Virus record (IMG/VR): IMGVR_UViG_3300031759_000105
Coordinates: 1 to 31,334 of that record
Reading direction: 5' to 3' (one strand)
Length of the DNA: 31,334 nt
Source: a virus
Below, piece by piece: positions 8,938 through 29,609 of this stretch. Within the stretch, counting starts at the first letter, position 1, and each line of letters starts with the position of its first letter. The notes under the pieces were generated by a model that worked only from the letters and a program-made list of their open reading frames with translations, had not been told where the DNA came from and did no database searches. A program made the translations under genes and the position numbers.

Positions 8938-10043
8938 CAGGGTGTTCCTTCGTCAAAATTTAGCCGCCACAACGAGCCCGACGGGGCAGCGCCGAGGCGA
9001 CGGAACATTGAGGACATTTTGGGCCCATTTCCCCGGGGGCCTGCCCGAAACCACACCTCGGAGACCCCCTTAGAGCGAAGCCTTCGGAGAGTTTCCCGCT
9101 GGAGTCGCATCCCAAGCCCGGGCATGTCCGGCGACGCGAAGAACGTAGTCTCGACCGCCGCAAGGCGGTTCTGCGCTTCGCGCGACACGGTGAGTTCCGT
9201 CATCAGGTATCCAAAAGATCTTCCGTTCGATCGAGCCATTACGATTTGGAGTTCTCCTGCGTCGGACTTCGCTTGGAGATAAGGGATGTTTTTCTCTCGG
9301 AACGACTCCGAAGTTTCCCCAACTGCAAAAGAGTGCTCGGCGAAGAGGTCTACCCCGTCTCGAAGGAACACCCCGAAGGGTTCCTCCTGAAATTCAACTC
9401 CATCGAGGCTTCGGACTTCGTGTAGGGTCATGTCGTGCAGAATTGCTCCCTTCGCCAACGTAGCCATCCTCCGAAGTTGTGGCGCAAAAGCCTCGACGTA
9501 GCGTTCGAACGTCGTGAAGGGCTCTTGGAGGTTCACCGGGGCCAGGACCCTCCACCACGCTTCATCGAACGGGACGAGGAGGGCGAACTCAAACACCCTT
9601 TTTGCTCCCTCAAGAGTCCCCAAGTCCTCGAAGGAGACGCTCAGCACACCGGGCACTCTCCGCTCCACTTGCGTCAGCTTCGCGTCGAGCTTCGTCATCG
9701 CGGAGTCCAAGTTCAGCGGTGGGGACTTCATGACCCTCCGGAGGCTCCGCGTCACTTCGGCGGGTGAACGCCTCACCACCACAACTCGAACACCCTGAGG
9801 GAGTGTCCCAAAAAGCCGCCAGAACGGAGCGACCGCAGTCTCGGCAGATCCAACAAACGACATGCTCCCCCATGACTTCAAGTCCTCCATGCTTCGGAAG
9901 TGTCGGAACTCCTCGTGGGTGCATTTCCACGGCCCCCACGACAAAAATTCCGAGAGCCACCTCGTCCGGCTCCTCGGAAGAGCGAGAATGAGGAAGGGTG
10001 GCGGGCTCTGCCACTTTGGCTCAAGTGAGAGTGACATACCCAA
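8937..10043 (-). CDS. Sulfotransferase-like / GNAT acetyltransferase-like fusion protein
   Basis: A 368-residue protein with two apparent domains. The N-terminal part (about 15-160) has FLILALPRSRTRWLSEFL at 17-34, which resembles the 5'-phosphosulfate loop of PAPS-dependent sulfotransferases, and VRVVVVRRSPAEVTRSL at 85-101, which resembles the 3'-phosphate-binding Arg...Ser element. The C-terminal part (about 245-365) ends with MPGLGMRLQRETLRRLRSKG and then SSMFRRLGA, like the acetyl-CoA loop and last helix of GNAT proteins encoded among podophage virion genes. The track start is TTG at 10043 with GGAG six bases upstream; an ATG at 10037 is the alternative. The start overlaps the upstream gene by 23 bases. 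Substrate unknown; it may modify host surface sugars or virion proteins. Confidence 0.62.
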   Translation of the reverse strand: MGMSLSLEPKWQSPPPFLILALPRSRTRWLSEFLSWGPWKCTHEEFRHFRSMEDLKSWGSMSFVGSAETAVAPFWRLFGTLPQGVRVVVVRRSPAEVTRSLRRVMKSPPLNLDSAMTKLDAKLTQVERRVPGVLSVSFEDLGTLEGAKRVFEFALLVPFDEAWWRVLAPVNLQEPFTTFERYVEAFAPQLRRMATLAKGAILHDMTLHEVRSLDGVEFQEEPFGVFLRDGVDLFAEHSFAVGETSESFREKNIPYLQAKSDAGELQIVMARSNGRSFGYLMTELTVSREAQNRLAAVETTFFASPDMPGLGMRLQRETLRRLRSKGVSEVWFRAGPRGNGPKMSSMFRRLGAAPSGSLWRLNFDEGTP

Positions 10044-10290: not shown

Positions 10291-11820
10291 TTACACTTTG
10301 GCTTTGGTTGCGTCGAGGAATGCTCCGTTGAGCGCAGCGGGGCCAGCGAAACTCCAACTGAGTTCGAAGACCGGCCACCGGGCAAGCCCGAGATTTCGCC
10401 ATTGGGGGAGGATACGATACGACGCCTCGACTACGTCCCCCTCGTTGGAGAGTTGGCCCGTCGTCTGGAGGATGTTTTGGCCCCACGTGCGGCCCCTATC
10501 GGAGCTCATTCTCAGGGCGAGTTGGGGGGGTTCATTGTTAGGTCCGATCGCCCCGTCGCCGCACTGGAAGTCTGCGTAGAAGCCGTTGAGGACAATCCCC
10601 TTCCCATCGGAGAGTTCGGCCCCTTGGCCTCCCCCAACCACCTCGACCTTCGGGAACGTCCGAATGCGCGGGATCGCCCGGGCGAGCGGGCCTGCTCCAT
10701 CCCCGACGTCTACGTCCGCTGCGAAATAGTCCGGGGTGACTTCGTATAGGGTCCCATTCTCCCAGTCCTGCCCCATGTTGAGCCCGTTTACCCACGCCAT
10801 CGCGCCGACCCGAGACCTCCCGAGGGTCCCGTCGGGAAACTGAAATGCCTCCTGGTGCCATCCGAACTTCGGGTCGCCCAGAGTCACATCGAACACCCAA
10901 GTTTGATTCCCCGCCGGAAAAGAGAGCCCGTAGAACATATGCCCATCGCGCATGAACACAAACCCGATGGCATCGGAGATTTGGTTCATCTGCCCAAGGG
11001 CATAGGAGAGGGCGTAGTTGGATACCACAGAGGTTTGATACCCCGACTGCCGCAGCACGACCCCCGAGCCCATTTCGTTCTGCCCGAGCCAGAACACTCC
11101 TTTGTCAATGAACGCAACCGAGTACGGCGCGATACACCCAAACTCGATGTACGCCCCGGGAAGAATAGCAAACGGAAACAACGCATTCCCGGCGTTGTAG
11201 TGGATTTCCCCTCGGGTGTTCCCCAGGAGGATAATTTCTCGTTGGTTCACCACGAAGGTGTTGATGAAGTCAGGGTAGCCATCCTTCACTCCGACGAGGG
11301 TGGAATCAAATCCGATGGCCCCCTGCGTCGTGCAGGCGTATTCGTTCGTAAGAGGGTAATTCCACAGGAGATATCCATCGAGGAAATCGACCTTGGTCGC
11401 CCCAAAGAAAGTTCCCGTGGAGTCCACAATCTGGGCGAACCCGAGGTTCGTCTGGATGTTCCAGGTATACCCCGTGGTGGAGTTGTCCACCAGGATTGCC
11501 TCAAGGCCATTATCCCGCATGGAGCACATATAGGACGAATTTTCGCTCAACGCCCCAAGGAGCGTCAGGCGGTTGTTGAGTCCAATGGCGTAAACGTTCG
11601 TCCCGACGACACAGTAGCCGTTGCCGTTCGAGGCCCGGAAGACCCCCCTTCCAGCGCCCTTCGCAGGTGGCACAATGAGGCCCTTTAAACCCGCCGTGGG
11701 GTAGTGCGTCATCTTCGACGCACCACTCCGGTTGGGCTCGGGGAACAAATTCACGCAGCGCTCGGCGGACCCGAGCACACTCCGAGTAGAGTACGATCCG
11801 CCGAGGAGTTCAAGGAGCAT
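10291..11820 (-). CDS. P22 gp10-like tail accessory / packaged DNA stabilization protein
   Basis: A 509-residue protein. It opens with LLGGSYSTRSVLGSAERCVN followed by LFPE, the family hallmark (G.Y...S....ER.VN.FPE) of the gp10-like DNA stabilization proteins, hub components that plug the portal after packaging in P22. The rest is beta-rich with repeated blade-like segments (DGYLLWNYPLTN, DGYPDFINTFVVNQREI, GVFWLGQNEMG). Length is close to that of P22 gp10. GGGAGG precedes the ATG. It lies downstream of the connector-like gene, as expected for a P22-type tail. Confidence 0.85.
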   Translation of the reverse strand: MLLELLGGSYSTRSVLGSAERCVNLFPEPNRSGASKMTHYPTAGLKGLIVPPAKGAGRGVFRASNGNGYCVVGTNVYAIGLNNRLTLLGALSENSSYMCSMRDNGLEAILVDNSTTGYTWNIQTNLGFAQIVDSTGTFFGATKVDFLDGYLLWNYPLTNEYACTTQGAIGFDSTLVGVKDGYPDFINTFVVNQREIILLGNTRGEIHYNAGNALFPFAILPGAYIEFGCIAPYSVAFIDKGVFWLGQNEMGSGVVLRQSGYQTSVVSNYALSYALGQMNQISDAIGFVFMRDGHMFYGLSFPAGNQTWVFDVTLGDPKFGWHQEAFQFPDGTLGRSRVGAMAWVNGLNMGQDWENGTLYEVTPDYFAADVDVGDGAGPLARAIPRIRTFPKVEVVGGGQGAELSDGKGIVLNGFYADFQCGDGAIGPNNEPPQLALRMSSDRGRTWGQNILQTTGQLSNEGDVVEASYRILPQWRNLGLARWPVFELSWSFAGPAALNGAFLDATKAKV

Positions 11821-14318: not shown

Positions 14319-15542
14319 TTACACCACATCGGCCACGACACAAGCCCATTCCGGACGAATCCACAAATGCCCAAACAACACGTCCAACCTGGTCGGCATT
14401 TGATCCGTGTTGATGATGTACTGCGTGAGCATTCGCATCGAGATGCCATCGAACTCGGCGCGAGAGGCTTCGTGCACGCCACGGGGGATTTCGAGGTCCG
14501 CCACGGCGAGGGTGACGGCTTCCGGGGCAAACGCGAAGTTCTTCCGATACGACGTTGACGCAGTGAGCCCATTCGCCGGGTTGACTGCCGCGCCCGTAGT
14601 GGGGGACGCAGTGACCGTCTGGAACTGCACCTGCTGGCCACCCACCGGGGGAATAATTGCCGGGAACATCGGGATTGTGGTGGCATTCACCGCAACATTC
14701 GCCGTCGCGACAAACTGGCACAACTCACCAGTCGATTGCTTCGTAATTTTGTTGACCTTGTACACCCCCGCGATGGTGAAGATGTCGCCCACGTTGAGGG
14801 TCCCCGCGAGGGCATTTACGGTGAGGTTGAGGCCAGTCTGGTTCGCTCCGTTCACCGTCGCAGACCCCTGCGCGAGGGTCCCTGTAGTGTGGATGATAGC
14901 CGTCTGGTCCCTCATCCAGATGAACCCGAGGGCATCATACATCCGTCCGGTGATGTATTGGTTGGACAACTCGGTCTGGGGATTGAGGAGCCCGCTGAGC
15001 GAAGCGACCACCCTCGCCTCAGTGCGCGGGCCATTCACGATCTTCCAGTTCGCCGTCGGCGCCGAGTTCAACGAAAGCGAAGCACCCGCGTTGAGGTAAG
15101 TGCTCGCGTTGGGGGTGAGGATGTTATTGTTGGCGTCCTGATTCGCCACGAAGTTCGCGATGCCTCCCTCAGACCCCGACATGATGTCAACCGCGACGGA
15201 GCCGACGAGGTTATTCACCGCGGGAGCGAGCACTCGGCGGGAGTAGTCGTCGAGGGACATAGTACGATCGACGGTCGTGAAGGAGACCCCCACGTTCTTC
15301 TGAGTCGAAATGACGAGGGTGGTGGACTGCTCCACAGTGTCCTGGACCGAGAGGGCCGGACCCGTCGCCACGGTGTAGTCGTTGGGGAGCCGAATCCTCA
15401 GCGCCGTTCCGATCTTCGCTCCGCCGATGGCGAAGCTCTCGTCGTACTGCATATCCACGTTCTGGATGAACGCGTTGGAGTTCTTCCACAAGCGAACCGC
15501 TTCGCGAGTGATCATATTGATAGTGAGCAGGGAGTTGGCCAC
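14319..15542 (-). CDS. Major capsid (coat) protein, P22 gp5-like
   Basis: A 407-residue P22-type coat protein of HK97 fold. It starts (M)ANSLLTINMITREAVRLW, the conserved N-arm of the family (usually MAN.LLT..MI.RE...). KNVGVSFTTVDRTMSLDDYS, an inserted beta domain around 220-320 (GTLNVGDIFTIAGVYKVN) and a C-terminal EIPRGVHEASRAEFDGISMR complete the pattern. I chose the GTG at 15542 over the longer GTG at 15569: AAAGGA lies eight bases before 15542, and the family begins at exactly this point. The extension to 15569 adds nine residues (MPTFERILA) without a good ribosome site. It is flanked by a coat-like fragment upstream and a hairpin downstream. Confidence 0.88.
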   Translation of the reverse strand: MANSLLTINMITREAVRLWKNSNAFIQNVDMQYDESFAIGGAKIGTALRIRLPNDYTVATGPALSVQDTVEQSTTLVISTQKNVGVSFTTVDRTMSLDDYSRRVLAPAVNNLVGSVAVDIMSGSEGGIANFVANQDANNNILTPNASTYLNAGASLSLNSAPTANWKIVNGPRTEARVVASLSGLLNPQTELSNQYITGRMYDALGFIWMRDQTAIIHTTGTLAQGSATVNGANQTGLNLTVNALAGTLNVGDIFTIAGVYKVNKITKQSTGELCQFVATANVAVNATTIPMFPAIIPPVGGQQVQFQTVTASPTTGAAVNPANGLTASTSYRKNFAFAPEAVTLAVADLEIPRGVHEASRAEFDGISMRMLTQYIINTDQMPTRLDVLFGHLWIRPEWACVVADVV

Positions 15543-15610
15543 GGCCAAGATCCTTTCAAAGGTGGGCACAATTGCCCTGACGGGTGGCGAACCCGAATGC
15601 GGCCAACGCA

Positions 15611-15666: not shown

Positions 15667-16002
15667 TCAGACGGGACTCAGAACCGAGCGAGACTGAAGC
15701 GAAGTTGCAATCTCGTATGGCAAACAAATCCGCAGCGACGTATCAATCTTCATGTTCGAACGAGCAAAAGCATCGTCGTACTGTGTGTCGATGTTTTCGA
15801 GAAACTTGTTGGAGTTCTTCCAGAGCCTTACCCCCTCTCGAGTAATTTTATTGATCGTCAAAAGGCTATTCCGTTTCGAAAGTTGTGCCAGAACCTCTTC
15901 GTCCGGCATCATACTAACTGGCATGAGCGAAGCTGCTCGTACAATCGCCGGAGTCGCAACGAGGGCAAGGAGTCCGCTAAGGAACCCTCGTCGAGACGGC
16001 AT
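15667..16002 (-). CDS. Twin-arginine leader fused to a truncated coat-protein N-arm
   Basis: A 111-residue protein. Residues 1-29 are a Tat-type leader: MPSRRGFLSGLLALVATPAI then VRAASLMPV, with the RR motif, a hydrophobic core and an AxA-like site. Residues 45-100 align by eye to coat residues 3-58 at about 35 of 52 positions (NSLLTIN, ITRE, VRLWKNSN, QYD, FA, LRI, LP). The coat similarity then stops, and the rest of the coat is absent. The ATG at 16002 has GTGAG upstream; a GTG at 16026 forms a GTGA overlap with the scaffold stop and is the alternative. It is lower in GC than the true coat gene, so it is not a recent copy. It may be a pseudogene or an exported coat-like peptide. Confidence 0.7.
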   Translation of the reverse strand: MPSRRGFLSGLLALVATPAIVRAASLMPVSMMPDEEVLAQLSKRNSLLTINKITREGVRLWKNSNKFLENIDTQYDDAFARSNMKIDTSLRICLPYEIATSLQSRSVLSPV

Positions 16003-16022
16003 TACGAACTCACTTCGCCCCG

Positions 16023-16889
16023 TCACGGGATGATCCTCCGCCCCGCACGCTTATTCACCTCGGTGACGTGGGCGCTCCGGCGTTCCATCCAAACCCTCAT
16101 GTCTGAAATCTGGTCGGAGCGTTCGGGGTCCTCCGCGGAGATCGCGACGTGGGTCCGGCCGACGCCCGAGATCGGGGTGATTGGCTTCGGAGCCCCCGAG
16201 ACTTCCTCGACGCCCCGGGAAGTAAGTTTGCCCAACTCAACCCCCATCTTAGTGGGAGTGAGCCCCATGATTCTCGCCGCTTCGTTCGGGTCCTCTCCGA
16301 GCGCCGCAATGAGCTTCGGAGCCGCCCCCGTGTCGAGCATCGCCTGGAGCATACTGAGATACCGCTGGTTTGTGTCGGGATCGGTGTTGTCGTGGAGCGC
16401 GCGAAGCGCCCCCACCGAGGCGTCGAACTTCTCCGCGCCGAATTCCTTCTGGCCCTCCGAGATCGCCGCGTTGAGGGCTCCCGTGAAGGAGTTCCACGAG
16501 GCGATTTTGGTGGCTTCCTCTTGCGCCAGCTTCGCGGCCTTCTCCGCAATCTCAGCCTGCATCGCAGCGGCGTCACTCGACTGCCCAGACTTCAGTTTCG
16601 CAACTTCGCGCTCGAGTTCGGCTTTCTGCGCGGTGAGTTTGTCGATGCGTTCTTGCTTGCGCTCCGCGGCGTAATCGCGCTTCGGGGGAGGCGAAGCTTC
16701 GGCGGCAGCCTTCTCAGCAGCGGCCTTTTCCGACGCCACTTTCGCAGCAACTTCAGCTTCGCTTGGTTCGGGTTGCGACGTCGCCGTTGTGATAGGGCCG
16801 GGCTCAGTCGCCGGGGGCGTGCCTTCTGTGGAGGCGTTTGCCCCGCCTTGGGGGGCCTTTGTAAGGTCAGATTCTGCCGCTTGCGTCAT
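16023..16889 (-). CDS. Scaffolding protein
   Basis: A 288-residue protein with a Pro/Thr/Ser-rich disordered N-terminus, a long Ala/Glu/Lys helical segment (about 40-130, KLTAQKAELEREVAKLKSGQ) and a basic C-terminus (MRVWMERRSAHVTEVNKRAG then RRIIP). A mostly helical acidic body with a basic C-terminal helix is the layout of P22 gp8, whose basic end binds coat. It is encoded immediately before the coat region, as in P22. Start and stop overlap both neighbours (ATGA at 16886-16889, GTGA at 16023-16026). The sequence itself is too low in complexity for a family match by eye. Confidence 0.72.
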   Translation of the reverse strand: MTQAAESDLTKAPQGGANASTEGTPPATEPGPITTATSQPEPSEAEVAAKVASEKAAAEKAAAEASPPPKRDYAAERKQERIDKLTAQKAELEREVAKLKSGQSSDAAAMQAEIAEKAAKLAQEEATKIASWNSFTGALNAAISEGQKEFGAEKFDASVGALRALHDNTDPDTNQRYLSMLQAMLDTGAAPKLIAALGEDPNEAARIMGLTPTKMGVELGKLTSRGVEEVSGAPKPITPISGVGRTHVAISAEDPERSDQISDMRVWMERRSAHVTEVNKRAGRRIIP

Positions 16890-18072: not shown

Positions 18073-18338
18073 ACTACCTGCTCATAGTTCCGCTCAATCC
18101 ACATCGGGCAATCATCAATCCAAACATCGACGTCTAGACCGATACTTTTACAATACTTGTCTTTTCCATTCATCATAGTATTTATAAAAGGAACATTGGG
18201 CTTTCGCCCCTCCGGCTTTCCGTATCGGAGAGTTACACAAACCACCTTGTGTCCTGCTTGTTCCATTAGCCCAATCACCCTATCCCACATATCAGGGTCT
18301 TCAGTATATGTTTTGTCATAATCAATCGCGATGAGCAT
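18069..18338 (-). CDS. Small HAD-like phosphatase
   Basis: An 89-residue protein with HAD motif I as D6-Y-D8-K-T10 (AIDYDKTYTED), a Thr at 36 in VVCVTLRYG (motif II position), K60/K61, and DVWIDDCP with D75-D76 as motif IV. It is a minimal HAD core without a cap, as in phage nucleotidase-like and kinase-phosphatase-like proteins. GC is far below the flanking portal and lysozyme-like genes. The ATG overlaps the portal stop (TAATG) and GGAG lies upstream. Likely a host-takeover or nucleotide-metabolism gene inserted into the structural operon. Confidence 0.72.
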   Translation of the reverse strand: MLIAIDYDKTYTEDPDMWDRVIGLMEQAGHKVVCVTLRYGKPEGRKPNVPFINTMMNGKDKYCKSIGLDVDVWIDDCPMWIERNYEQVV

Positions 18339-20677
18339 TACACCGGACTCCGAAGGTTCTGCCCCGGCACAGCGTGAAGCTGCGCCAGCGGGGCCACCCG
18401 AAGGTACTTCCCCTTCCGCGTCGGATCAGTAAGATACCACTCTCCATCAGGGGCTTTTTTGGCCCCAGCGATCGGGGGAGCTTCCTCAGAAGGCTTCGTC
18501 CCCTGTGAAGCTTCGTCCTCCCCAATGTTCGCATGGACTTTGATCTCATCCATGATGCCACCAATGGAGGTTTTGAGCGAGTCCTGCACTGCCTGAGCGA
18601 TGAGAGCTTGAAGCCCTTCGGGGTCCGTCGGGAGCATCTTGGCGAGGGCCGCGATGCGCTTGGTCTCGGCGTCGTAAACCTCGACCTCGCGGAGGTCACC
18701 CTTATTCGCCAGTTTGATCCGATCTCGCGCGTGAAGATCCATCTCTTTGACGAGGGCCTGCTGGAGGGTCATTAGTTGTTGCTGAAGTATCTGCTCTTGC
18801 TGCGTCGGACCTTGCCCGAGGGCTACCGGAGGTACCATCCGCCGGAGCCTTAGGCTCGCCTCCGCAGCACCCTCAAAGGGCATATTCTTCAGGAGGACGT
18901 CCCCCAGGATCGGAATGAGCCCCGGCGCTTGCGTCAGAAGAAGCGTCATATTCTCGACCGTCTCCTCCCGCCGGGTGTCGTGCGCCGGGCCCACACTCGA
19001 CCCAACTTCGTACTTTCCCACGAGGGGGTTCACAACCCTCTTGATCACCTGGCCCTGGAAGTCTTGCTCTTGGGCGAACGCAGCGCGGAGGGAAGGGTCG
19101 ATGACGAGGTCGTACTCAATTCCGTCCGACGCGACAATCCGCTTGATGCGGCGAGTGTCGTAGAGCCTCGGATAGAGGTCGAGTAGTTGCTTCCCCAACG
19201 CAATCAACATCGCCTCGTAGTTGTCTTGGAAGTGGAAGTTTGCCGTGGCGGACTGCGACCGCCTCGCGTTGATAGCTGCCCCCGTGCGCTCATTCCCGGG
19301 CTCCCCGAGTTGATTTTCGTACTGCCCCGACACCATCATGATCTGCTGGCGTGAGTTTTCCATCGCTTGTTGGAACCCGGCGGACGCGGCGGGAGGATCA
19401 ATCCGCTGAGGGGCCGGAATCGGAACCTCAGGGTTTCCTTCGGGGTCGATGTGATTGTACGGCAGCACCGCAGGGTTGTCGATGTTTGACATTCGCCAAA
19501 CCGCTTCGTGCTCCTCAATCGCCTTGGCGGGGGCTAACCAAGGGGCTTTCGTCTGAAGTGAGAGTCCCTCGATCTGCGCTGAAGAGAAGTAATTGAACAT
19601 ACGCTGTGCATCGAGCATGTAGCGGGTGTGCCCTTTCCGATCCAACCGGCCTTCGATAACGGTCTCTTCCCCCAAACACCGGAGGATGGGGATATACTTT
19701 CCAAGCCAAATCGTTTTCTCAATGACCTCAGAACCCACAATGAGATACCACTCCACTTCATCGGACGTGACTTCGCGAAGGCGTGTTGTTTCACGATCAA
19801 GAATTCCATCCCGAGCCTCCTTGGCACGAATAAGACGTTCGAAGCGGGCCCTCGGAAAGTTGAAGCGTTGGCCCTGGTAGAGGAAACTTACAAGTTCGCT
19901 CCTCTTCGGCACCTTGCGGAAGTACTCAACAACGCGAATGTGACTCTCGCCTCGCCGGTCCGCCCCTCCTGTTCCGAGCCCGAGGGGCTCCGTTCCCCTC
20001 ACTCGCGCCACGAGGTCCGGATACGCCTCCGCGAAGTCTTGCCGAGGGACGTCATCGAACACGAACGCGAACTTGGCGTCGAGGGCATTTCCCCCAACGT
20101 GGATGTCGGGGTCGAGAAAGACCTGCATGGGGTCGTCGATCGGGTCGAGGTAGGCTTCCTGATTGAACGAGTCATCCGCCTCATACCGCGTCACAATGCG
20201 GCAGTATCCGACGCCCCCATCGACCGCCCATGACCGCGCCACTGGGAGCGCCAGATGCTGCGCGTCCGAGATTTGCTGCGTGTGCCGGAAGAGATCCTGG
20301 AAAACCCCCGCCGAATCGGCGGTGGCGCCGTTCCCCATTCCGATAAACTTCACCTCGGATTTGTTCTTCCTCATCTCATTCGAGATCATCTTGTTGTGCG
20401 CCCGAATTAGATTCATCGTAAGGCATGGCCTCGCGGTGTTCTCCCTCGCGTTCCGGATCTCGTTGGGCCATTGGAACCCGTTCTCGGAGTCTCCATAGGC
20501 GAACTTGATATCCCGCAGAAACCGCTGCCGCCACTCGCCTTCCCACTCGTTGCACCGATCAAAGCGCTTTCGAGCCTCCTGCACAACAGGGTCATCCGAA
20601 AGCACGCTCGGATCACTTGGGTCGTCCGCGTCAACGCTTCGGGCTTCGCCCTTCCGCCGTCTCGTCATCTCATCCAC
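18338..20677 (-). CDS. Portal protein, P22 gp1-like
   Basis: A 779-residue protein, the large size typical of P22-type portals. Recognisable elements are RFDRCNEWEGEWRQRFLRDI near the start, RPCLTMNLIRAHNKMISNEM, then QISDAQHLALPVARSWAVDG and a long helical C-terminal half (QEQILQQQLMTLQQALVKEM) matching the stem and barrel helices. Twelve copies would form the DNA channel. GTG at 20677 has AAGGGGG six bases upstream; the ATG at 20668 forms an ATGA overlap with the terminase stop and is a fair alternative. It lies directly after large terminase, as expected. Confidence 0.88.
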   Translation of the reverse strand: MDEMTRRRKGEARSVDADDPSDPSVLSDDPVVQEARKRFDRCNEWEGEWRQRFLRDIKFAYGDSENGFQWPNEIRNARENTARPCLTMNLIRAHNKMISNEMRKNKSEVKFIGMGNGATADSAGVFQDLFRHTQQISDAQHLALPVARSWAVDGGVGYCRIVTRYEADDSFNQEAYLDPIDDPMQVFLDPDIHVGGNALDAKFAFVFDDVPRQDFAEAYPDLVARVRGTEPLGLGTGGADRRGESHIRVVEYFRKVPKRSELVSFLYQGQRFNFPRARFERLIRAKEARDGILDRETTRLREVTSDEVEWYLIVGSEVIEKTIWLGKYIPILRCLGEETVIEGRLDRKGHTRYMLDAQRMFNYFSSAQIEGLSLQTKAPWLAPAKAIEEHEAVWRMSNIDNPAVLPYNHIDPEGNPEVPIPAPQRIDPPAASAGFQQAMENSRQQIMMVSGQYENQLGEPGNERTGAAINARRSQSATANFHFQDNYEAMLIALGKQLLDLYPRLYDTRRIKRIVASDGIEYDLVIDPSLRAAFAQEQDFQGQVIKRVVNPLVGKYEVGSSVGPAHDTRREETVENMTLLLTQAPGLIPILGDVLLKNMPFEGAAEASLRLRRMVPPVALGQGPTQQEQILQQQLMTLQQALVKEMDLHARDRIKLANKGDLREVEVYDAETKRIAALAKMLPTDPEGLQALIAQAVQDSLKTSIGGIMDEIKVHANIGEDEASQGTKPSEEAPPIAGAKKAPDGEWYLTDPTRKGKYLRVAPLAQLHAVPGQNLRSPV

Positions 20678-22184: not shown

Positions 22185-23657
22185 TCACGGCTCCGCCGAG
22201 GCGGAGATGATCCCCGTCGCCGAGGACGTCCCCAGGGTCGTGAGATGATTCGCCGTGCCCGCCGCACCGACCGACGCCGTGCACGTCAACATCACCCCCA
22301 CCGGGCTCGGAAGCGCCGCATACGTCGCCGCCGCCGCCAGCGCAGAGCATGCCCCCACGCTCGTCTCAGCCACCTGGGCGAACGCCTGGAACCCCACGGT
22401 ATACGACACCGCCGGAGTGATCCTCATCGGCACCGGGAACTGCACGTAGCAATTCATCGCCGTCGTTGCGGTGTTCTCGCAAGTCGCCACGGTTTGAATG
22501 GCGGCCTGGTTCTCGAAGTTGTAGTACCAATACGAGTAGTCGATAGCAGTTTCGATCGCCGCCGGGCGCCTCTCAAACGCCGTCGGAGTGATCACTCCAT
22601 TCGGGAGACTCGGAGTGACCGTCGAGGGCTTCGCCTCAAGTTGAAGCCCCTGGACCTCGAACCAGTCCGTCGTGATCGCACTGGCGAGAGTCGGAGTGAA
22701 GCAAAGCTGAACGCTCACATCCGTTACCGCCGTCGTCGTCCCAGGGATCGTAGGGGGGATCGGCGCTGCGATGGCGTAGCGGGCCCACGTCGTGCTGAGG
22801 GGAATCGTGACGAAACCATTCGTCCCGATGGTCCCCGAAGTCCCTGCCACGAGCACCGGCACCGCCGCAGTCTGCGAAGTCGGTCCCGAAGTCCCGAACG
22901 TCGCTGCGTTGGTTCCGATGGTGTACTTCGAGCCCTGAGACCCGGCGTACCCGAGCGTCGCCTGGGTCCCCGCCGCCGCGGTCCCTGCGGAGTATGAAAT
23001 CTCCACCGTGATCGCCCCGCCTGTGGCACTCATGGCGGCGCCGTTGAGCCCATAGAACGAGAACACTGCATTCGCTCCGATGAGGGGAGCGCTCTGGTTC
23101 TGATCGAGCGTCTGCCCAATACACGTCAGGGCTGCAGCGGCACTCGAAGTCCTGGCAACCCTGAGGGCCTTGGTGGTTCCGAGCGCCGGAAGCACCTCGG
23201 TGGTGCCCGAAGCGATAGTCTCGGTGACGTTCGAGGTCCCCGAGGAGTAAATCCACCATCCATCCGCTCCCATCACCGCCGCGTTCGCGGTGAGGCCGGC
23301 GAGCGACGCGATGCCTTTCGTCGTGGAAAGCCTTTGCGCGATGTTGGTGTTGAAGTCCCCTCCGACGAGGCGATTCACCCCAAACGGCAGCGCTAGCACC
23401 GACGTTGGCACGAGTTCCGTCTGCGGAAACGCCCCCTGTGCGAGGCCCGTGTCCACCGCTATAGTCTCGGAGCCCGTTAGGGCCGGGGCTCCTGCGGGGA
23501 CATACCCCTGACAAGCCCCATTCACCGTGTTGTAGCAATACTGTGGACCACCCACCATCGGCACGTTCGGGAAGAACCCAGCCGCCAGTGCGGCTACTCC
23601 CAGCATTCCCGTCGCCGTCGCGAGCACCCCCGCGAGGATCTTTCTCTTGAACCTCAT
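22185..23657 (-). CDS. Fibre/adhesin-type virion protein with hydrophobic leader
   Basis: A 490-residue protein. The ATG at 23657 has AGGAG five to six bases upstream and is preferred to the longer frame from 23798, which runs through the hairpin array. The start is a basic-hydrophobic leader (MRFKRKILAGVLATATGMLG, VAALAAGFFP), which could be a cleavable signal or an anchor. The body is Thr/Ala/Gly-rich and beta-like. Late in the protein, DWFEVQGLQLEAKPSTVTPS then ERRPAAIETAIDYSYWYYNF is the ...LEAG..ATPFE.RP...E...C..YY ending common in phage fibre and baseplate-associated proteins. Likely a receptor-binding or decoration protein. Confidence 0.62.
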   Translation of the reverse strand: MRFKRKILAGVLATATGMLGVAALAAGFFPNVPMVGGPQYCYNTVNGACQGYVPAGAPALTGSETIAVDTGLAQGAFPQTELVPTSVLALPFGVNRLVGGDFNTNIAQRLSTTKGIASLAGLTANAAVMGADGWWIYSSGTSNVTETIASGTTEVLPALGTTKALRVARTSSAAAALTCIGQTLDQNQSAPLIGANAVFSFYGLNGAAMSATGGAITVEISYSAGTAAAGTQATLGYAGSQGSKYTIGTNAATFGTSGPTSQTAAVPVLVAGTSGTIGTNGFVTIPLSTTWARYAIAAPIPPTIPGTTTAVTDVSVQLCFTPTLASAITTDWFEVQGLQLEAKPSTVTPSLPNGVITPTAFERRPAAIETAIDYSYWYYNFENQAAIQTVATCENTATTAMNCYVQFPVPMRITPAVSYTVGFQAFAQVAETSVGACSALAAAATYAALPSPVGVMLTCTASVGAAGTANHLTTLGTSSATGIISASAEP

Positions 23658-23670
23658 CTGACTCTCCTGC

Positions 23671-23733
23671 GGGGCTTCGCCCCTCTTCTGTGGGGGATCA
23701 TTCCCCCATAGCTTCGCTAGGGGCTTCGCGCCC
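23671..23733 (-). other. Array of four small hairpins before a fibre gene
   Basis: On the minus strand, in order: GGGCGCGAAGCCC-type hairpin (23720-23733), TAGC-GAA-GCTA (23709-23719), TGGGGGA/TCCCCCA with a four-base loop (23691-23708), and GGGGC-GAA-GCCCC (23671-23683). Three of the four contain GCGAAGC. They fill the 76-base gap between the two fibre genes and end just before the AGGAG ribosome site of the gene starting at 23657. They may terminate, process or stabilise mRNA. Confidence 0.65.
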
Positions 23734-24873
23734 TCAGTACTTAATGCACGACAAAAATGCGATATTCGCCGGCCTCGTGTCCGTTCCCGTTCCGACACTC
23801 ACTACACCTCCCTTCACCGAAATGGATCCACTCACTCCCACAGTCCCCGTTGATACTCCGGCGGTGCCACCCGAACCAAGCTCGGTGGATCCGATTACGA
23901 CAGTATTTGCGGTTGCTCCGGAGAACGTGCCAGTGCCGCTAGTAATGGTACCCGCTGTCGTCGCCACAGCGTTCGTCTGGGTTGATCCCAAAGTCCGACT
24001 AGGATCAATTCCAGTCCCCCCTGTGTTCACCGAGCGCCAAAAGTATCCTTGGTCATTCGGCAAATTGAATGTCGTAGTCCCGTCACCGGTACCGTACGTG
24101 GTTCCGATGACCCCAAAGAGATTCGCCTCGACGCTTCGCGAAACCGCTTGGCCGTTGTTCTGTCCCCACCCCAGTGGGCACGACCCTCCCGCGAACATCG
24201 CTACTTGACCGGATGGAACTTGTTGTGCTGGAGCATACGCCGCCACGAGGAACGCATTCACCGCTGCGGAGTACGTCGCGTTGACGAGGTTTCCCGTAGC
24301 GATCTCGCCGCCGATAAAAGGAACCGGGCCAGTGATGGTGTTTTTCTCCACGAGAACGATGCCGTATCCCGAGGCGTTGATCGTCACCGATCCCGTGTTA
24401 GTGGCACTTGCAATGAACCCGACACTCTGCCCGTCCGTCGCGTTGAAACCAGTCGGCCCCACAAGGGTGATCGCATTCGTGGTGCCGCTAGCAGTCCCAT
24501 ACCACAGCGTCCCGGTGTCTCCACCTCCTGCACTCGCCGGTGACGCATACGTAAGTTGGTCCCACACCACAACCCCATTGAGGTCTTGGAGGACCTGCCG
24601 ATACACCCCGTTACCCCAGATGATAGCTCGGCCATTCGAGTCAAGCGAAATCGGGTTCTGGTTTGGCGTAGCCCCGTAGGGGTCCTGGTACGTCATCTTC
24701 GGAGTGGTCGTATAGGGCACGTACATGTAGAGGTGCCCCCCGGCGTAAGGAACCCCATTCCCGTCGCTGAATTGCTGCATCCCTCCGGGAAGCACGGCTT
24801 GGGTCTGAGCGAACGCCCCCGTAGCAAAGCAAAGCCCAACGAGGATGACGATCCTCAAGAGGAATTTTAGCAT
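23734..24873 (-). CDS. Tail fibre with collar domain and Sec signal peptide
   Basis: A 379-residue protein. The ATG at 24873 has GGAG seven bases upstream and gives a textbook signal peptide, MLKFLLRIVILVGLCFATGA then FAQ, with predicted cleavage after residue 23. Immediately after comes a phage fibre head-binding type domain: FSDGNGVPYAGGHLYMYVPY, ...TYQDPYGATPNQNPISLDSN, GRAIIWGNGVYRQVLQDLNG. A phage tail collar domain follows at about 240-300 (LFGVIGTTYGTGDGTTTFNL). The end is Gly/Thr-rich. The domain calls are good; the leader on a virion protein is odd, since phage structural proteins normally assemble in the cytoplasm. Confidence 0.8.
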   Translation of the reverse strand: MLKFLLRIVILVGLCFATGAFAQTQAVLPGGMQQFSDGNGVPYAGGHLYMYVPYTTTPKMTYQDPYGATPNQNPISLDSNGRAIIWGNGVYRQVLQDLNGVVVWDQLTYASPASAGGGDTGTLWYGTASGTTNAITLVGPTGFNATDGQSVGFIASATNTGSVTINASGYGIVLVEKNTITGPVPFIGGEIATGNLVNATYSAAVNAFLVAAYAPAQQVPSGQVAMFAGGSCPLGWGQNNGQAVSRSVEANLFGVIGTTYGTGDGTTTFNLPNDQGYFWRSVNTGGTGIDPSRTLGSTQTNAVATTAGTITSGTGTFSGATANTVVIGSTELGSGGTAGVSTGTVGVSGSISVKGGVVSVGTGTDTRPANIAFLSCIKY

Positions 24874-24890
24874 TGCTTCGCTCCACCCTC

Positions 24891-25190
24891 TCACGTCGAA
24901 TGCCCCGAAAACAACTTCACCAAATACGTCGCCGAAGCCCCCGCCGCCGCCGCGAAGCCCGAGTACCACGCGATGCGATTCTCGAGTCGTACCACTCTCG
25001 GCTCGAGCTTGTCATGCACAAACGACCCCACTTCGTTCCCGGAGCTTTGCTCGAGGTATCGAATCCTCCCGTCGAGTTCCGAGTGCTGCCTCGCGTTTCG
25101 GTCGTCCTGGATGCCGAGTTGATCAACGAGTTGCTTCGTCCTCCCGTCAATTTGCCCCACAAGGTAGTGAATGTCATCCAGGGTTGTCAT
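24891..25190 (-). CDS. Coiled-coil membrane protein, DUF1515-like
   Basis: A 99-residue protein. The N-terminal two thirds are a probable coiled coil (YLVGQIDGRTKQLVDQLGIQ, RIRYLEQSSG) and the C-terminus has one hydrophobic span (about 75-95, WYSGFAAAAGASATYLVKLF). The plan and wording resemble DUF1515 proteins of rhizobial genomes and phages, recalled not searched. It stands at the end of the lysis cassette, so a lysis accessory role such as holin partner is possible. AAAGG lies about nine bases before the ATG. Confidence 0.55.
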   Translation of the reverse strand: MTTLDDIHYLVGQIDGRTKQLVDQLGIQDDRNARQHSELDGRIRYLEQSSGNEVGSFVHDKLEPRVVRLENRIAWYSGFAAAAGASATYLVKLFSGHST

Positions 25191-25211
25191 CGCATCGGCC
25201 TTTGAGGTAGG

Positions 25212-25301
25212 TCAGTTGAATCCAAGTTGGTGGCTGTTTTTGCACGCCTCGAGGAGGAGCGGGAGCATCACAATTAGGGCGAGCTTGACACAAACCATCA
25301 T
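25212..25301 (-). CDS. 29-residue putative lipoprotein
   Basis: Read directly: ATG-ATG at 25301-25296, stop TGA at 25212-25214. MMVCVKLALIVMLPLLLEAC is a signal with a lipobox-like L-L-E-A-C, leaving a ten-residue mature peptide (CKNSHQLGFN). It starts two bases after the stop of the upstream gene, so reinitiation is likely, since no strong ribosome site is present. The size and place suggest an Rz1-like outer-membrane spanin fragment or a small exclusion lipoprotein; neither is proven. Confidence 0.45.
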   Translation of the reverse strand: MMVCVKLALIVMLPLLLEACKNSHQLGFN

Positions 25302-25303
25302 GA

Positions 25304-25627
25304 TCAAGCCCCCGCAGGAGGTGCGAGCGGATCAACGAGGCCCTCGTCCTTACCAGCCTGGACGAGCGCCGCATCGAGGTCAGCCGACATCTTCTCCAGA
25401 GTCGTCATCTGATCCGCAGTGAGATTCCCCTTGGACTGCACCGCAGCGATCATGTCTTTGACCGACGCGATGAGGGCCGGGAAAACCTTCATGATGTCGG
25501 GCAGGATTTTGTCAAGCAACGAGATAATCTTCGCTGCCGCCGAAGTTGACCCTCCGGAGACATCGGAGAGCAAACTAACAACGAGGTCGAGGACGGCCTG
25601 AATAATGAGTTCGGCTGCGCTAAGCAT
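25304..25627 (-). CDS. Amphipathic helical phage protein in the lysis region
   Basis: A 107-residue protein, helical and rich in Leu/Ile/Ala (LIIQAVLDLVVSLLSDVSGG, IISLLDKILPDIMKVFPALI), followed by LTADQMTTLEKMSADLDAAL. Similar small proteins with an LTADQ...L..L...L.A end are frequent near phage lysis genes. The N-terminal part might insert into a membrane but lacks a clear uninterrupted span. GAAGGAA lies nine bases before the ATG. Confidence 0.5.
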   Translation of the reverse strand: MLSAAELIIQAVLDLVVSLLSDVSGGSTSAAAKIISLLDKILPDIMKVFPALIASVKDMIAAVQSKGNLTADQMTTLEKMSADLDAALVQAGKDEGLVDPLAPPAGA

Positions 25628-25666
25628 TGTAGGGGTTCCTTCTAGGGGGAGGGGAGGTGGCGGAAG

Positions 25667-26065
25667 TTACGACGTGGGAGTTATGCCAGCGCTGATGAGG
25701 TCAGCCTTGAGAGTCCCGTAGACCGTCATCAGAGTGTTGTACGACACAACCGGAATCGGGCCGCCGTTGTTGTCACGCAAGAGATTCAACACCGCGTCGC
25801 GATCTTGCCCATACACCCGAAGATCAGAAAAGACCTTCTGCTCAGTCGCCCGATTGCACGCCTGGGGTGTTCCGGCAAGCTTATGGCACGAGTTGATGTA
25901 CCCGATGCCGAACCCCTCGGCAGTGTTGTACGAGTCAACCATTACTTGAGCAACCTGCGGCGAAACTGTCGCTCCGGTGATTGCGCTGGTGACGTCAGAG
26001 CAACTGGCGGCGGTGAGCAGCGGCATGGCAATCACCGCGGCGAGCATAATGAGCCATTTCTTCAT
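25667..26065 (-). CDS. Putative lipoprotein of the lysis cassette
   Basis: A 132-residue protein. MKKWLIMLAAVIAMPLLTAA followed by SC is a lipoprotein signal with a lipobox-like LTAASC. The mature part is helical with two further Cys (NSCHKLAGTPQACNRATEQK). Its ATG overlaps the stop of the preceding small membrane/coiled-coil gene (ATGA at 26062-26065). A lipoprotein behind a membrane-anchored coiled-coil protein is the arrangement of a two-gene spanin, but the mature sequence is longer and less proline-rich than usual outer spanins. Confidence 0.6.
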   Translation of the reverse strand: MKKWLIMLAAVIAMPLLTAASCSDVTSAITGATVSPQVAQVMVDSYNTAEGFGIGYINSCHKLAGTPQACNRATEQKVFSDLRVYGQDRDAVLNLLRDNNGGPIPVVSYNTLMTVYGTLKADLISAGITPTS

Positions 26066-26240
26066 GTCGAAGGTTCCTTTTCTGAAGTTTTGCCAGGCTT
26101 GAGGGTCTCTGCAATCACCCCCGCAAGCTTCACGATCTCCACCCGAAGGTGCGCGTCGGACTCAGCTTCGCTCCGGCGCTGGATGAGGGCTCCGACGAGC
26201 CTCCGACACACATCGCGACGACGATGGCTGCGATGCTCAT
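26062..26240 (-). pseudogene. Small membrane/coiled-coil protein split by an apparent frameshift
   Basis: The start at 26240 overlaps the holin-like stop (ATGA 26237-26240) and reads MSIAAIVVAMC, a hydrophobic start, but that frame soon turns non-coding and stops. In the minus-one frame the sequence LVGALIQRRSEAESDAHLRV then EIVKLAGVIAETLKPGKTSE runs to a TGA that overlaps the next start (ATGA 26062-26065). The 179-base span is one base short of a whole number of codons. Both ends fit the coupling style of this genome, so one gene is the best reading: a spanin-like inner-membrane protein with an indel, assembly error or frameshift event. Confidence 0.55.
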
Positions 26241-26593
26241 GACGCCACCTTCGTGATGGGCGAGTTCACCTGTGGTGCCAACGCGGTATCCGCCACGACC
26301 TTCACCCCATTCGTCGGGTCAGCATTGACCGCCTTGATAAGCATCGCTGGCGGCAGCGCTCCCATTCGCTCCGCCGGCGAGAGCGCCAGTACCGCGGAGA
26401 CTTTCGCCGAACGAGTGTGGGACAAAATTCCCCAGAGGCCCGGGCCGACCGTCACAATCGCACTTCCGAGGGTGATGATGGCCGTCACCAGCACCGCCGA
26501 ATCTGCCGCGGAGAGATACCCCTTCGCCGCAAGAACCCCTCCCAAGAATGCTGCCCCCGTCCGAATGAGAGAATTCCACTGGTCTTGATTCAT
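26237..26593 (-). CDS. Holin-like protein
   Basis: A 118-residue protein. MNQDQWNSLIRTGAAFLGGV, then LAAKGYLSAADSAVLVTAII and TLGSAIVTVGPGLWGILSHT give two hydrophobic helices separated by a short turn, with a soluble C-terminal tail. This matches the phage protein type annotated as Pam3 gp28-like putative holin, from memory. AAGGA eight bases before the ATG at 26593 decides the start over the GTG at 26596. It sits downstream of the endolysin and before the spanin-like gene, completing a lysis cassette. Confidence 0.7.
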   Translation of the reverse strand: MNQDQWNSLIRTGAAFLGGVLAAKGYLSAADSAVLVTAIITLGSAIVTVGPGLWGILSHTRSAKVSAVLALSPAERMGALPPAMLIKAVNADPTNGVKVVADTALAPQVNSPITKVAS

Positions 26594-26617
26594 CACGCGA
26601 TTCCTTTTTAGTTTCGC

Positions 26618-26781
26618 CTAGAAGAGCCCCAACAACCTTAGGATGAGGAGCACTACAATAACCCCCACGATCCCGCCGCCGAAGCCAACCCCTCCCCCCG
26701 GAAATTCGTTGTGCCACCCGCCGTAGTATCCGCCTCCCCGACGAGGAGAATCACGATGATTAAGATGACGAGAATGTTCAT
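26618..26781 (-). pseudogene. Glycine-rich small membrane protein split by a one-base gap in a G-run
   Basis: From ATG 26781 (ATGA overlap with the endolysin stop) the frame reads MNILVILIIVILLVG, a membrane helix, then turns implausible. In the next frame, from the GGGG at about 26737-26740, the sequence reads GGYYGGWHNEFPGGGVGFGG then GIVGVIVVLLILRLLGLF. Adding one G restores a single 54-residue protein with two helices joined by a Gly-rich loop, like DUF3309-type small phage membrane proteins. The 164-base span is one base short of whole codons. A homopolymer error or a real mutation could both explain it. Confidence 0.6.
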
Positions 26782-27254
26782 GTTGAGGTTCCCCCATGCG
26801 CCACGTCGTACTGGTACAAGTTCGCACTCTTCATAATCGCGATGAGTGCAGGCCCATACGGATGTCCCGGAATCCCCGTCGCGTACACTCCCTGGAGTGC
26901 CATAGCGTAAGCATCCGGCGTCTGGGCGGCTTGTGCAGCATGATAGCACGGGGCCGTCGCAAGGAGCTTCGCGTGCGCGTCAAAAGCCTCCTGGAGGGAG
27001 GCGAACTTCGCAAAGTGCTGCGGCAACGACACATACACCCCGTGGAGGGTTTCGTGCGTCCACGCGATCACATCAAGTTGTCCAGGCAACGCCTTGATTC
27101 CGAAGGGGTTATTGCTCCCCGAAGGCATCGCTCGCCCGTACGCACTTTCGAGCGCCCACTGTGCGAGCGACACCGACACGAAAGGCCCCATCGGATACCA
27201 TTTCCGCTCGGACTCTTGCGCCGCAGCAATTACTTCGGGAGGAAACGAGTTCAT
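26778..27254 (-). CDS. Endolysin, glucosaminidase (FlgJ/LytG-like) domain
   Basis: A 158-residue protein that is one domain throughout. VSVSLAQWALESAYGRAMPS carries the expected catalytic Glu (E36) after SLAQWA, then NNPFGIKA at 49-56, FAKFASLQEAFDAHAKLLAT and YHAAQAAQTPDAYAMALQGV end in YATGIPGHPYGPALIAIMKS, the typical last block of N-acetylglucosaminidase endolysins. It has no signal peptide or anchor, so it needs a holin for release. The stop overlaps the next start (ATGA 26778-26781). Confidence 0.85.
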   Translation of the reverse strand: MNSFPPEVIAAAQESERKWYPMGPFVSVSLAQWALESAYGRAMPSGSNNPFGIKALPGQLDVIAWTHETLHGVYVSLPQHFAKFASLQEAFDAHAKLLATAPCYHAAQAAQTPDAYAMALQGVYATGIPGHPYGPALIAIMKSANLYQYDVAHGGTST

Positions 27255-27339
27255 TTATTCTTCTCCAAAACTTCCACCACGGTCCAACTTGCCCCCTCAT
27301 CCATCCCCGTCGCGCTCGGGGAGGGAGAGGAAGACACCC

Positions 27340-28926
27340 TCAGTAAGCCAGCATGGAAGTCGGGGCGACGGCGATGCGAGAGATGACGCCATTGAACGAC
27401 ATGTCTCCGATCCCACGAACGCCAATGCTCAGTTGGGTCGGCGTCGGCATAGTAATCGGCGTGGTGCTGAGCGAACCCAGCGTCGAATTGAATTTCATTT
27501 GACCGCCAGCTACATTTATAAAAGTTAAGACCTTCGCTTGAGTGCTTCGCGCCCACGTCCCGGAAACAGTCGGAACAGTCTGCGCGACGCCGCCAGCCGT
27601 GATCGAAGTCGCCACGCCACCCGTCGCACTAGAGCGCGAAAGCTGTACGCAGTTGTTCGCCGTGCCATCGTTGACCGACGCAACAGCCTGACCCTGTGTG
27701 TAACTCGTAGGGTCCTCTGGTGTTCCAATCGCGTAGAGCGAGTATGCCAGCATCGGTCGAATCGGCAGGGTGATGACATCCGCCGCCCGCGCCAGAGCAC
27801 TGCCGCTCGTCAGGATCGGCGTCGTGGCGAAAGCCGCTGCGGCGTTATTGGTCGGCGTTAAGTTGACGCTCGCACCGGTCCAGCCCGTAGCCGCGCCAGA
27901 GACATATGTCAGCGCCGATGGACTCGTCGGGAACACGGTATAGGAGCCCGCGCTCGCGACGGAATTGACCGTCAGAACCCCGCCCGACCACGTGCAGTTG
28001 AGCGTCGCCGCCGTGCCTGTACCGTCGCCTACTGAGTAGACCGCCGATCCGTTAACGCCTCCCGAGCCGCTGGCGTTGACCGCAGCAGAGGCGACGGTGG
28101 AGTTGATTAAAGTATTTAATTCCATTTGTGGAACGGCGATGTTAACAGTGCCGTTGTAAGACTGACCGTTGATAACATTAAAGTAAAATCGCGATGTAAC
28201 ATACGCGGTCGTTGCGTCTATTGGGGTAAACGATATATTTATTCTAGTTGGAGATGATGTAGCTGCGCCTACTATTGAATTCGCACCACTTAGCGTAACA
28301 CCCGCACTATTTCTATTTGTTATTGCAATATTAATTGTAGGCAAGGTTCCTGATGCATACAAATATACTGATGCATTCCACGTTTGACCATATGTAGCTG
28401 CTGCAATCTGTGTTCCTTCGAACTGAACATACGCAACGCCAGAAGCATTAGCCGTTCCGAATATGCTAACCGGAATCCACGTAAAACCAAAGAAAACAAA
28501 TGGTGCTCTGGGGGTCGCCGTTATTGTGCCGGCTGGTGCATATGACCAGTTCGTTGGCCATGTTGATCCCGTTGCCCCCACCATCGTATTGTTACGGATT
28601 GAGTTGGTCCGACCTTCCTCTATCGTGACGCCGAGGTTTGTGCGACGCAGCGTATTCGACGGGAATGAAGTCCAGTTGCCCAAGGCGTTGACCGCCGTTC
28701 CGACGCTGGCGCGGGAGACACTGAGTGACCCCGACGCGTCCTTGAGCCAATAGCGATTGTTGGCAAAGTCGAGATCGACGCCGTGAACGGCAGGAGGAAG
28801 GACCCATGACGAGGCAACGCTGAACAGCGCCGCCTTCTGTCCTGGCGTCAGTGCCTCTCCCGCCCCACCCCACAGGGCGGCGCCGAGAGCGATGGTGAGG
28901 GTGATAAGGTGGCGCATGGGGTACAT
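27340..28926 (-). CDS. Fibre/adhesin with signal peptide and LamG-like end
   Basis: A 528-residue protein. The ATG at 28926 overlaps the upstream stop (TGATG), giving MYPMRHLITLTIALGAALWG then GAGEALT, a probable Sec leader (a second ATG at 28917). The segment SVSRASVGTAVNALGNWTSF, then LRRTNLGVTIEEGRTNSIRN is a hallmark of phage virion proteins (SRAS...GL.IEE.RTN). The middle is beta-rich. The C-terminus (SLYAIGTPEDPTSYTQ..., FNGVISRIAVAP) looks like a concanavalin/LamG-type carbohydrate-binding domain. The stretch around 28090-28600 is much richer in A+T than the ends. Likely a receptor-binding fibre. Confidence 0.68.
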   Translation of the reverse strand: MYPMRHLITLTIALGAALWGGAGEALTPGQKAALFSVASSWVLPPAVHGVDLDFANNRYWLKDASGSLSVSRASVGTAVNALGNWTSFPSNTLRRTNLGVTIEEGRTNSIRNNTMVGATGSTWPTNWSYAPAGTITATPRAPFVFFGFTWIPVSIFGTANASGVAYVQFEGTQIAAATYGQTWNASVYLYASGTLPTINIAITNRNSAGVTLSGANSIVGAATSSPTRINISFTPIDATTAYVTSRFYFNVINGQSYNGTVNIAVPQMELNTLINSTVASAAVNASGSGGVNGSAVYSVGDGTGTAATLNCTWSGGVLTVNSVASAGSYTVFPTSPSALTYVSGAATGWTGASVNLTPTNNAAAAFATTPILTSGSALARAADVITLPIRPMLAYSLYAIGTPEDPTSYTQGQAVASVNDGTANNCVQLSRSSATGGVATSITAGGVAQTVPTVSGTWARSTQAKVLTFINVAGGQMKFNSTLGSLSTTPITMPTPTQLSIGVRGIGDMSFNGVISRIAVAPTSMLAY

Positions 28927-29609
28927 CAGTTCTGATACCCCGTCGCATCGACCGAGTACGCTCCGATGCCTGGAGTGAATGTCAGGATCGCCACCGCGCA
29001 AGCGTAGATGTTTAGCGAGAGCGTCGTATCTTGGTTGGCGTAAGATGCCGGAGGCACAAAGTCGTTCTCGAAGTACGTCTTAGCGTCGCCCTGGGTTTGT
29101 GCAACCGCGACAGGAGTCACGTTGAAAGGCTGCGCGATGAGGTGCAAATCATCTGAGGCGTTCCCAATGTAAGCCACATTGTCAGTGCAAGTAGTCGAAG
29201 CAGGTCTGACGTCCCAAATCCTCCACAAAAGCGCTGTCGTGTCGCCCGCCACAGAAGCCCCAAAGAACCTCGAAATCGCGCCAGAGCCCCCTAAAGCCCT
29301 CGCCACCGGGATCGTAAAGAGTCCCCCAACCGAAACTCCCGCGGTGTGAGAGGAGTTCGTTGGGGTCTTCGAGGCCCCTGTGGCAGTCGCAGGAGCGCTT
29401 CCGGTGTCGAACCCTTGTACCGGAAGGGGATTCTGCGTCGACACCGGACACTGTCCGTACGTCGTGACGCCCGAGGCGGAAGTTGAGGAACACTGCCACC
29501 CAATTGCGACGTCCGCCGCCTCGACGGGGGCGAAAGCACTTCCGAGGGTGATGGCGAAGCCTCCCATCACCCCGAAAAGCCCCCCCAGAAGTGCTTTCGC
29601 TTGCGTCAT
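28926..29609 (-). CDS. Exported virion-type protein with Sec signal peptide
   Basis: A 227-residue protein. MTQAKALLGGLFGVMGGFAI then TLGSAFAPVEAAD is a signal peptide with AEA-type cleavage near residue 32. The mature part has four or more Cys in its first half and at the end (WQCSSTSASGVTTYGQCPV, STTCTDN, YACAVAI) and a beta-rich domain (LWRIWDVRPA, FENDFVPPASYANQDTTLSL) like proteins found beside fibres in related phages. Start and stop overlap both neighbours (ATGA 29606-29609; TGATG 28924-28928). Possible disulfide formation after export would fit the Cys content. Confidence 0.6.
   Translation of the reverse strand: MTQAKALLGGLFGVMGGFAITLGSAFAPVEAADVAIGWQCSSTSASGVTTYGQCPVSTQNPLPVQGFDTGSAPATATGASKTPTNSSHTAGVSVGGLFTIPVARALGGSGAISRFFGASVAGDTTALLWRIWDVRPASTTCTDNVAYIGNASDDLHLIAQPFNVTPVAVAQTQGDAKTYFENDFVPPASYANQDTTLSLNIYACAVAILTFTPGIGAYSVDATGYQN

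Follow-up and report, generated by a model that had tools for sequence, protein, structure and literature searches.

Why should the tail genes of a podovirus carry signals for export, when the virions of tailed phages are taken to be assembled in the cytoplasm? The question is raised by the virus record IMGVR_UViG_3300031759_000105 of IMG/VR, a stretch of 31,334 bases, possibly a fragment, which was analysed at its full length and is referred to here as the window. Its minus strand carries a P22-type podovirus gene set, comprising terminase, portal (phrog_156), scaffold, coat (phrog_283) and the head closure protein Hc3 (phrog_578); a DNA polymerase of family A is encoded on the opposite, plus strand. 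At 22185-29609 lies a tail and lysis cluster made up of genes A, B, C and D, with which we are concerned, together with small genes, a holin and a glucosaminidase endolysin. Our current working hypothesis, to which we assign a probability of about 0.6, is that the tail appendages leave the cytoplasm, lose their leaders and acquire disulfide bonds in the periplasm, and then dock at or after lysis on virions built in the cytoplasm.

RESULTS

Signal sequences of proteins A to D

Proteins A to D, encoded on the minus strand with starts at 23657, 24873, 28926 and 29609, each open with what is, by prediction, a complete Sec/signal peptidase I leader; a positive n-region, a charge-free hydrophobic h-region and an AxA-type junction are found in all four.

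22185..23657, minus strand: protein A, 490 amino acids (aa); Sec leader, then a predicted tail-appendage domain in which 8 cysteines are conserved
23583..23657, minus strand: Sec leader of A, 25 aa, MRFKRKILAGVLATATGMLGVAALA followed by AGFFPN; predicted cleavage between ALA and AG
23734..24873, minus strand: protein B, 379 aa; Sec leader, P22-type tailspike head-binding domain and tail collar domain
24808..24873, minus strand: Sec leader of B, 22 aa, MLKFLLRIVILVGLCFATGAFA followed by QTQAVLPGG; predicted cleavage between AFA and QTQ
27340..28926, minus strand: protein C, 528 aa; Sec leader; weakly related (E 7e-3) to the annotated tail protein gp49 of Azospirillum phage Cd
28852..28926, minus strand: Sec leader of C, 25 aa, MYPMRHLITLTIALGAALWGGAGEA followed by LTPGQ; predicted cleavage between GEA and LTPGQ
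28926..29609, minus strand: protein D, 227 aa; Sec leader and a four-cysteine domain
29517..29609, minus strand: Sec leader of D, 31 aa, MTQAKALLGGLFGVMGGFAITLGSAFAPVEA followed by ADV; predicted cleavage between VEA and ADV

Shine-Dalgarno-like sites (GGAG/GAGAG/GAGG) lie ahead of A, B and D, and the start of C overlaps the stop of D (TGATG); an earlier note on this DNA had stated that each start has its own ribosome site or overlap. The Sec-type leaders that the note placed on C and D, and the Sec signal that it placed ahead of the head-binding and collar domains of B, were likewise located. It had described the leader of A as merely hydrophobic; the leader is indeed there, and family comparison shows it to be a full Sec leader.

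Leaders were called by a rule-based detector made for this analysis, which gives some false positives; in a trial on six Escherichia coli proteins it found OmpA, MalE, DsbA and Bla, rejected LacZ and missed PhoA. Within the lineage that carries the leaders, 79 of 575 called genes passed the leader test, against a mean of 22 (maximum 34) with shuffled N-termini, a comparison that rules out chance hydrophobic N-termini; in control phages the figures were 14 passes and, after shuffling, 7.8. A role for A to D as membrane anchors or holin-like proteins was ruled out, since their leaders look cleavable and no transmembrane segment was detected beyond them. Besides the detector, the conclusion rests on conservation within families and on cysteine parity.

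Conservation is clearest for protein A. The leader is present in 12 of 12 homologues with an intact N-terminus (homologue L009, which starts at a contig edge, was not judged; G and L numbers are our own labels), and the junction reads AxA or AxG followed by AG or an AG-like pair in 13 of 13 aligned sequences with an intact N-terminus, the window included. Mean pairwise identity in the family is 38% over the leader and 54% over the mature part; by this measure the leader would be evolving as real signal peptides do, with the pattern kept while the letters drift.

The head-binding domain of protein B

Behind the leader of B lie two domains.

24520..24789, minus strand: head-binding (virion-docking) domain of B, approximately residues 29-118, by fold match
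24040..24210, minus strand: phage tail collar domain of B, residues 222-278 (PF07484, E 2e-17)

The head-binding domain has no match in Pfam. An AlphaFold model of mature B is poor as a whole, with a predicted local distance difference test (pLDDT) score of 41, but of fair quality over residues 9-88, where most blocks score about 71-87. When mature B was compared with known structures by VIA-align, the 13 best PDB matches were all phage tailspike head-binding structures (Z 8.4-10.9), among them those of Pan3 (10.9), Pam1 (9.4), Sf6 (9.2) and P22 (1lkt; 9.1), over about 80-89 residues, against Z of 7.4 or less for unrelated folds. A profile search with B also reached the Pam1 head-binding domain (E 2e-5); a search of genome contigs gave no relatives of B. 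A predicted virion-docking module thus sits immediately behind a predicted export signal.

Relatives with and without leaders

A search of relatives for conserved leaders, as had been suggested earlier, found the leader kept not only throughout the intact A homologues but also on B-type proteins in most records, and the leader pattern is conserved in relatives of A, B and D. Leadered B-type head-binding proteins occur in the window and in G001-G004, G006-G009, G011 and G014, where they carry differing C-terminal bodies; the head-like domain that stands behind a leader in G013 is more diverged. Leaderless head-binding proteins occur in PAE2, Rhodoferax P26218, ctNMl277, ctfPj964, Xanthomonas PBR31 and the uncultivated G010 and G012. 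In these the initiating methionine stands a few residues ahead of the conserved motif (MTQLLPNGKQHF, MATLLPEGKQSF), which corresponds to the predicted cleaved form. Indeed, predicted cleavage of B between AFA and QTQAVLPGGMQQF would yield an N-terminus like that of the leaderless homologues, and window B has no methionine at its mature start (QTQAVL). Downstream starts and missing leaders, which would have spoken against the observation, are confined to the leaderless group; close relatives keep the leaders. No leaderless head-binding paralogue was found in the leadered genomes. In PAE2 (L084, 14624-15073 and 14864-16873) the head-binding tailspike gene is unannotated, and a minus-strand hypothetical gene, PAE2_16, is annotated over its start.

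For C and D the comparison is narrower. The motif LTPGQ stands right behind the leader both in C and in one leadered protein of G008, and D has leadered relatives among the called genes of G003 and G009; an IMG/VR pattern search gave no relatives of C or D, and a family search none of C. Domain and family searches recognised no catalytic domain in A, C or D.

In the window and in twelve contigs related to it, most of the leadered proteins map to the tail cassette. There are up to about eight in G004 and several in each of G007, G008, G009, G011, G013 and G014, and G010 and G012 have no convincing one; these lists include some false calls, and gene and leader calls outside the window were made in this analysis. 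One portal family was present in 16 of 16 related records searched, and on the portal tree the leader trait requires 2 changes, against a mean of 8.1 with shuffled labels. Neither an integrase (PF00589) nor a thioredoxin-family gene was found in ten lineage records, which may be fragments; Dsb families other than the latter were not searched.

Cysteine content

Exported proteins with disulfide bonds tend to have even numbers of cysteines. Among leadered proteins of at least 130 aa, 43 had an even number, 4 an odd number and 1 none, compared with 110 even, 112 odd and 100 without cysteine among the leaderless proteins of the same genomes. The difference persisted when homologues were merged (26 even to 3 odd leadered families, against 52:57) and when a fixed 30-residue cut was applied (41:6 against 105:111, Fisher P 6e-7). 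Of the odd cases, a homologous pair of MKFLLVGT proteins would seem to be false leader calls, and a third is the lipoprotein-like protein of the window.

Loss of cysteines from protein A is also pairwise. Of its conserved cysteines (C41, C49, C179, C319, C393, C403, C437 and C459), 437 and 459 are jointly missing in L042 (G013), L044 (G015) and G004, and 41/49 and 393/403 are jointly missing in G011 and G004; 179 and 319 are lost in no homologue. Since G013 and G015 both have a neighbour on the portal tree that retains 437 and 459, this pair has probably been lost more than once. The partners among 41, 49, 393 and 403 are not fixed by these data because all four vanish in the same two genomes. 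Even counts and pairwise loss point to oxidising folding, i.e. export, and the leaders thus appear functional.

Neighbouring genes

10291..11820, minus strand: Hc3, a P22 gp10-like head closure protein (phrog_578, E 1.7e-61)
18338..20677, minus strand: P22-type portal protein (phrog_156), which defines the lineage
25667..26065, minus strand: small exported or lipoprotein-like protein by leader pattern (LLTAASC), between tail and lysis genes
26237..26596, minus strand: holin of the Pam3 gp28 family (PF23987, E 2e-10)
26778..27254, minus strand: glucosaminidase endolysin without a leader, by domain or family match

Family searches gave no match for the small LLTAASC protein.

DISCUSSION

We hypothesize that this lineage makes its tail appendage and receptor-binding proteins as precursors with Sec leaders, which pass into the periplasm; there signal peptidase I would remove the leader, and the mature proteins would fold and form disulfide bonds. 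Portal, coat and head closure proteins, which have no leaders, would assemble in the cytoplasm. Opening of the cell by holin and endolysin would mix the two compartments, and the mature appendages could then dock through the P22-type head-binding domain of B on an exposed tail hub, so that infectivity would be completed at or after lysis. Hc3, which we take to be the docking neighbour expected of a P22-type tailspike, is present. The tailspike of P22 (gp9) joins last, and it attaches to tail-less heads in vitro. The benefit of export would probably lie in an oxidising environment, in which stable surface proteins with disulfide bonds can fold.

The steps of this scheme do not carry equal weight. 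Export is strongly supported at the level of sequence by the conserved leaders, by cysteines that are even in number and lost in pairs, and by predicted cleavage sites that coincide with the starts of leaderless proteins. Cleavage, disulfide formation, presence in the virion and the time of docking, like export itself, are what we infer from these features. The wider proposition, of a tailed-phage lineage whose virions are finished outside the cytoplasm with receptor-binding proteins that are secreted, oxidised and processed in the periplasm and attached only at lysis, we regard as an even bet.

Several points weigh against the hypothesis. The leaderless relatives work without export, and the head-binding fold therefore does not require it. 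A virion-docking domain was recognised in B and none was demonstrated in A, C or D, whose status as virion parts we take from gene position and co-occurrence. The models of B beyond its head-binding domain and of A (pLDDT 50, with a weak resemblance to carbohydrate-binding modules and no sequence match in PDB) are too poor to use, and the cysteine counts depend on a gene caller and leader detector made for this analysis. The appendages may be targeted dually, part being exported and part remaining in the cytoplasm, and an exported protein could have retained the head-binding domain for some other purpose.

A related possibility is that A to D are exported and stay on the infected cell, as decoys or in receptor masking or superinfection exclusion, the docking domain being left over from a tailspike ancestry. 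It shares with our hypothesis the evidence of real leaders and a disulfide signature, and phages are known to export envelope proteins, Lom of the lambda-type phages being an example (PMC12309495). We consider it unlikely: B has a well-formed head-binding fold and corresponds to the tailspike that sister phages make without a leader, each genome encodes several differing leadered appendages, and as no leaderless head-binding paralogue was found, the phage would be left without that virion spike. Lysogenic surface conversion in particular is less likely because the ten lineage records, which may be incomplete, contain no integrase. The earlier note had proposed export to the host surface or periplasm with several possible roles. 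Export is supported by the leaders, cysteines and cleavage sites, and of those roles the combination of disulfide-containing appendages with parts added to virions at or after lysis agrees best with the data. Decoys and superinfection blockers agree less well, given that B retains its docking domain, the whole set of differing appendages is leadered, the genes lie in a structural and lysis cluster and integrase was not found.

Alternatively, the proteins may be exported enzymes or adhesins, and not virion parts, that act before or at lysis on host exopolysaccharide to aid release and spread. The resemblance of A to carbohydrate-binding modules would suit such a role, as would a leadered, GH66 dextranase-like enzyme inside the structural gene block of the Acetobacter prophage phiAX1. 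This leaves the leader ahead of the docking domain of B unexplained and sits poorly with the lack of a recognised catalytic domain in A, C and D, and we think it decidedly improbable. There is a slim chance that the hydrophobic N-termini stay uncleaved and serve the virion proteins as membrane-interacting segments during adsorption or assembly, given that export and cleavage of A to D are predicted from sequence; the fixed n-h-c pattern and AxA junction within families, a predicted cleavage point that matches the usual start of leaderless proteins of the family and an even-cysteine bias confined to leadered proteins, which suggests an oxidising compartment, all argue otherwise. That the real starts lie downstream of the leaders, where leaderless homologues begin, is practically ruled out by the ribosome sites and gene overlap behind the upstream starts, by reading frames and a leader pattern kept across divergent relatives and by the missing methionine at the head-binding start of window B (mature QTQAVL).

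Among the closest known systems are the P22-type tailspikes (P22 gp9, Sf6 gp14, Pam1 and Pan3), which share the fold of the mature B N-terminal domain, from phages whose portal, coat and Hc3 are of the type found in the window. B differs in being preceded by a cleavable-looking Sec leader, and in having a collar domain behind the head-binding domain, in a region where its model is poor; the body of the P22 spike is a beta-helix endorhamnosidase. BcepC6B gp19 and Xanthomonas PBR31 gp35, annotated as a tail fiber and a putative structural protein, resemble A to D as tail-type proteins with Sec-like leaders and even cysteines, encoded beside the main fiber or spike gene, but they belong to an unrelated protein family, and the main fiber or spike encoded next to them has no leader. 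The portal of phiAX1 groups with the leader lineage, and two leadered proteins (26418-27383 and 27387-29312) lie between its structural genes; these are, however, other proteins, one of them the GH66 enzyme, and the phage is temperate. That virion proteins normally lack signal peptides, as assumed in the earlier note, holds for most control phages but not for BcepC6B, PBR31 and phiAX1, whose tail genes include or adjoin genes for leadered proteins. The phiAX1 GH66 protein (L082, 27387-29312), annotated as a cycloisomaltooligosaccharide glucanotransferase, may itself be an exported exopolysaccharide depolymerase.

Exported phage lysis proteins (PMC3765740) have been described, as has Lom. Signal-arrest-release endolysins (phiKMV, JG068 gp47 and P1 Lyz) are likewise exported by a Sec-type N-terminus (PMC3765740), but they are uncleaved and serve lysis, not the tail, and the endolysin of the window has no leader. 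Leadered variable lipoproteins of bacterial diversity-generating retroelements are comparable as exported, ligand-binding display proteins; Benler et al. found phage targets of such elements to be without signal peptides and took this as support for their phage origin (PMC6199706). We found no report of Sec-leadered virion spikes in the open-access PMC literature, and prior art in closed journals is possible.

If the hypothesis is true, a lineage with exported, disulfide-type tail appendages would represent a two-compartment assembly route, which would account for oxidised receptor-binding proteins and make late, extracellular spike attachment a testable question; spikes could also be shared among particles in a lysate holding more than one phage. 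Cultivated phages with leadered tail-type proteins (BcepC6B gp19, PBR31 gp35 and phiAX1) make the idea testable. Annotation pipelines may label such genes as host secreted proteins, and for recombinant production of such spikes the periplasm is worth trying.

OTHER OBSERVATIONS

A search of genome contigs with A gave one match, a contig of a Beijerinckiaceae metagenome-assembled genome that also bears the phage portal; with phiAX1, this hints at a host among the Alphaproteobacteria. In the structural block, the first half of the protein encoded at 8937-10043 (minus strand) matches the 'hydrolase' family phrog_10855 (E 3e-11) and has no Pfam match. At 15667-16026 (minus strand) a 119-aa protein consists of a twin-arginine-like leader (PSRRGFLSGLLALVATPAIVRAASLMPV) fused to a partial N-terminus of the coat protein, the full gene for which lies at 14319-15569. 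Relatives of the protein occur at 13849-14241 of L076 and in L007 and L013, and the layout is identical in the relative from G009.

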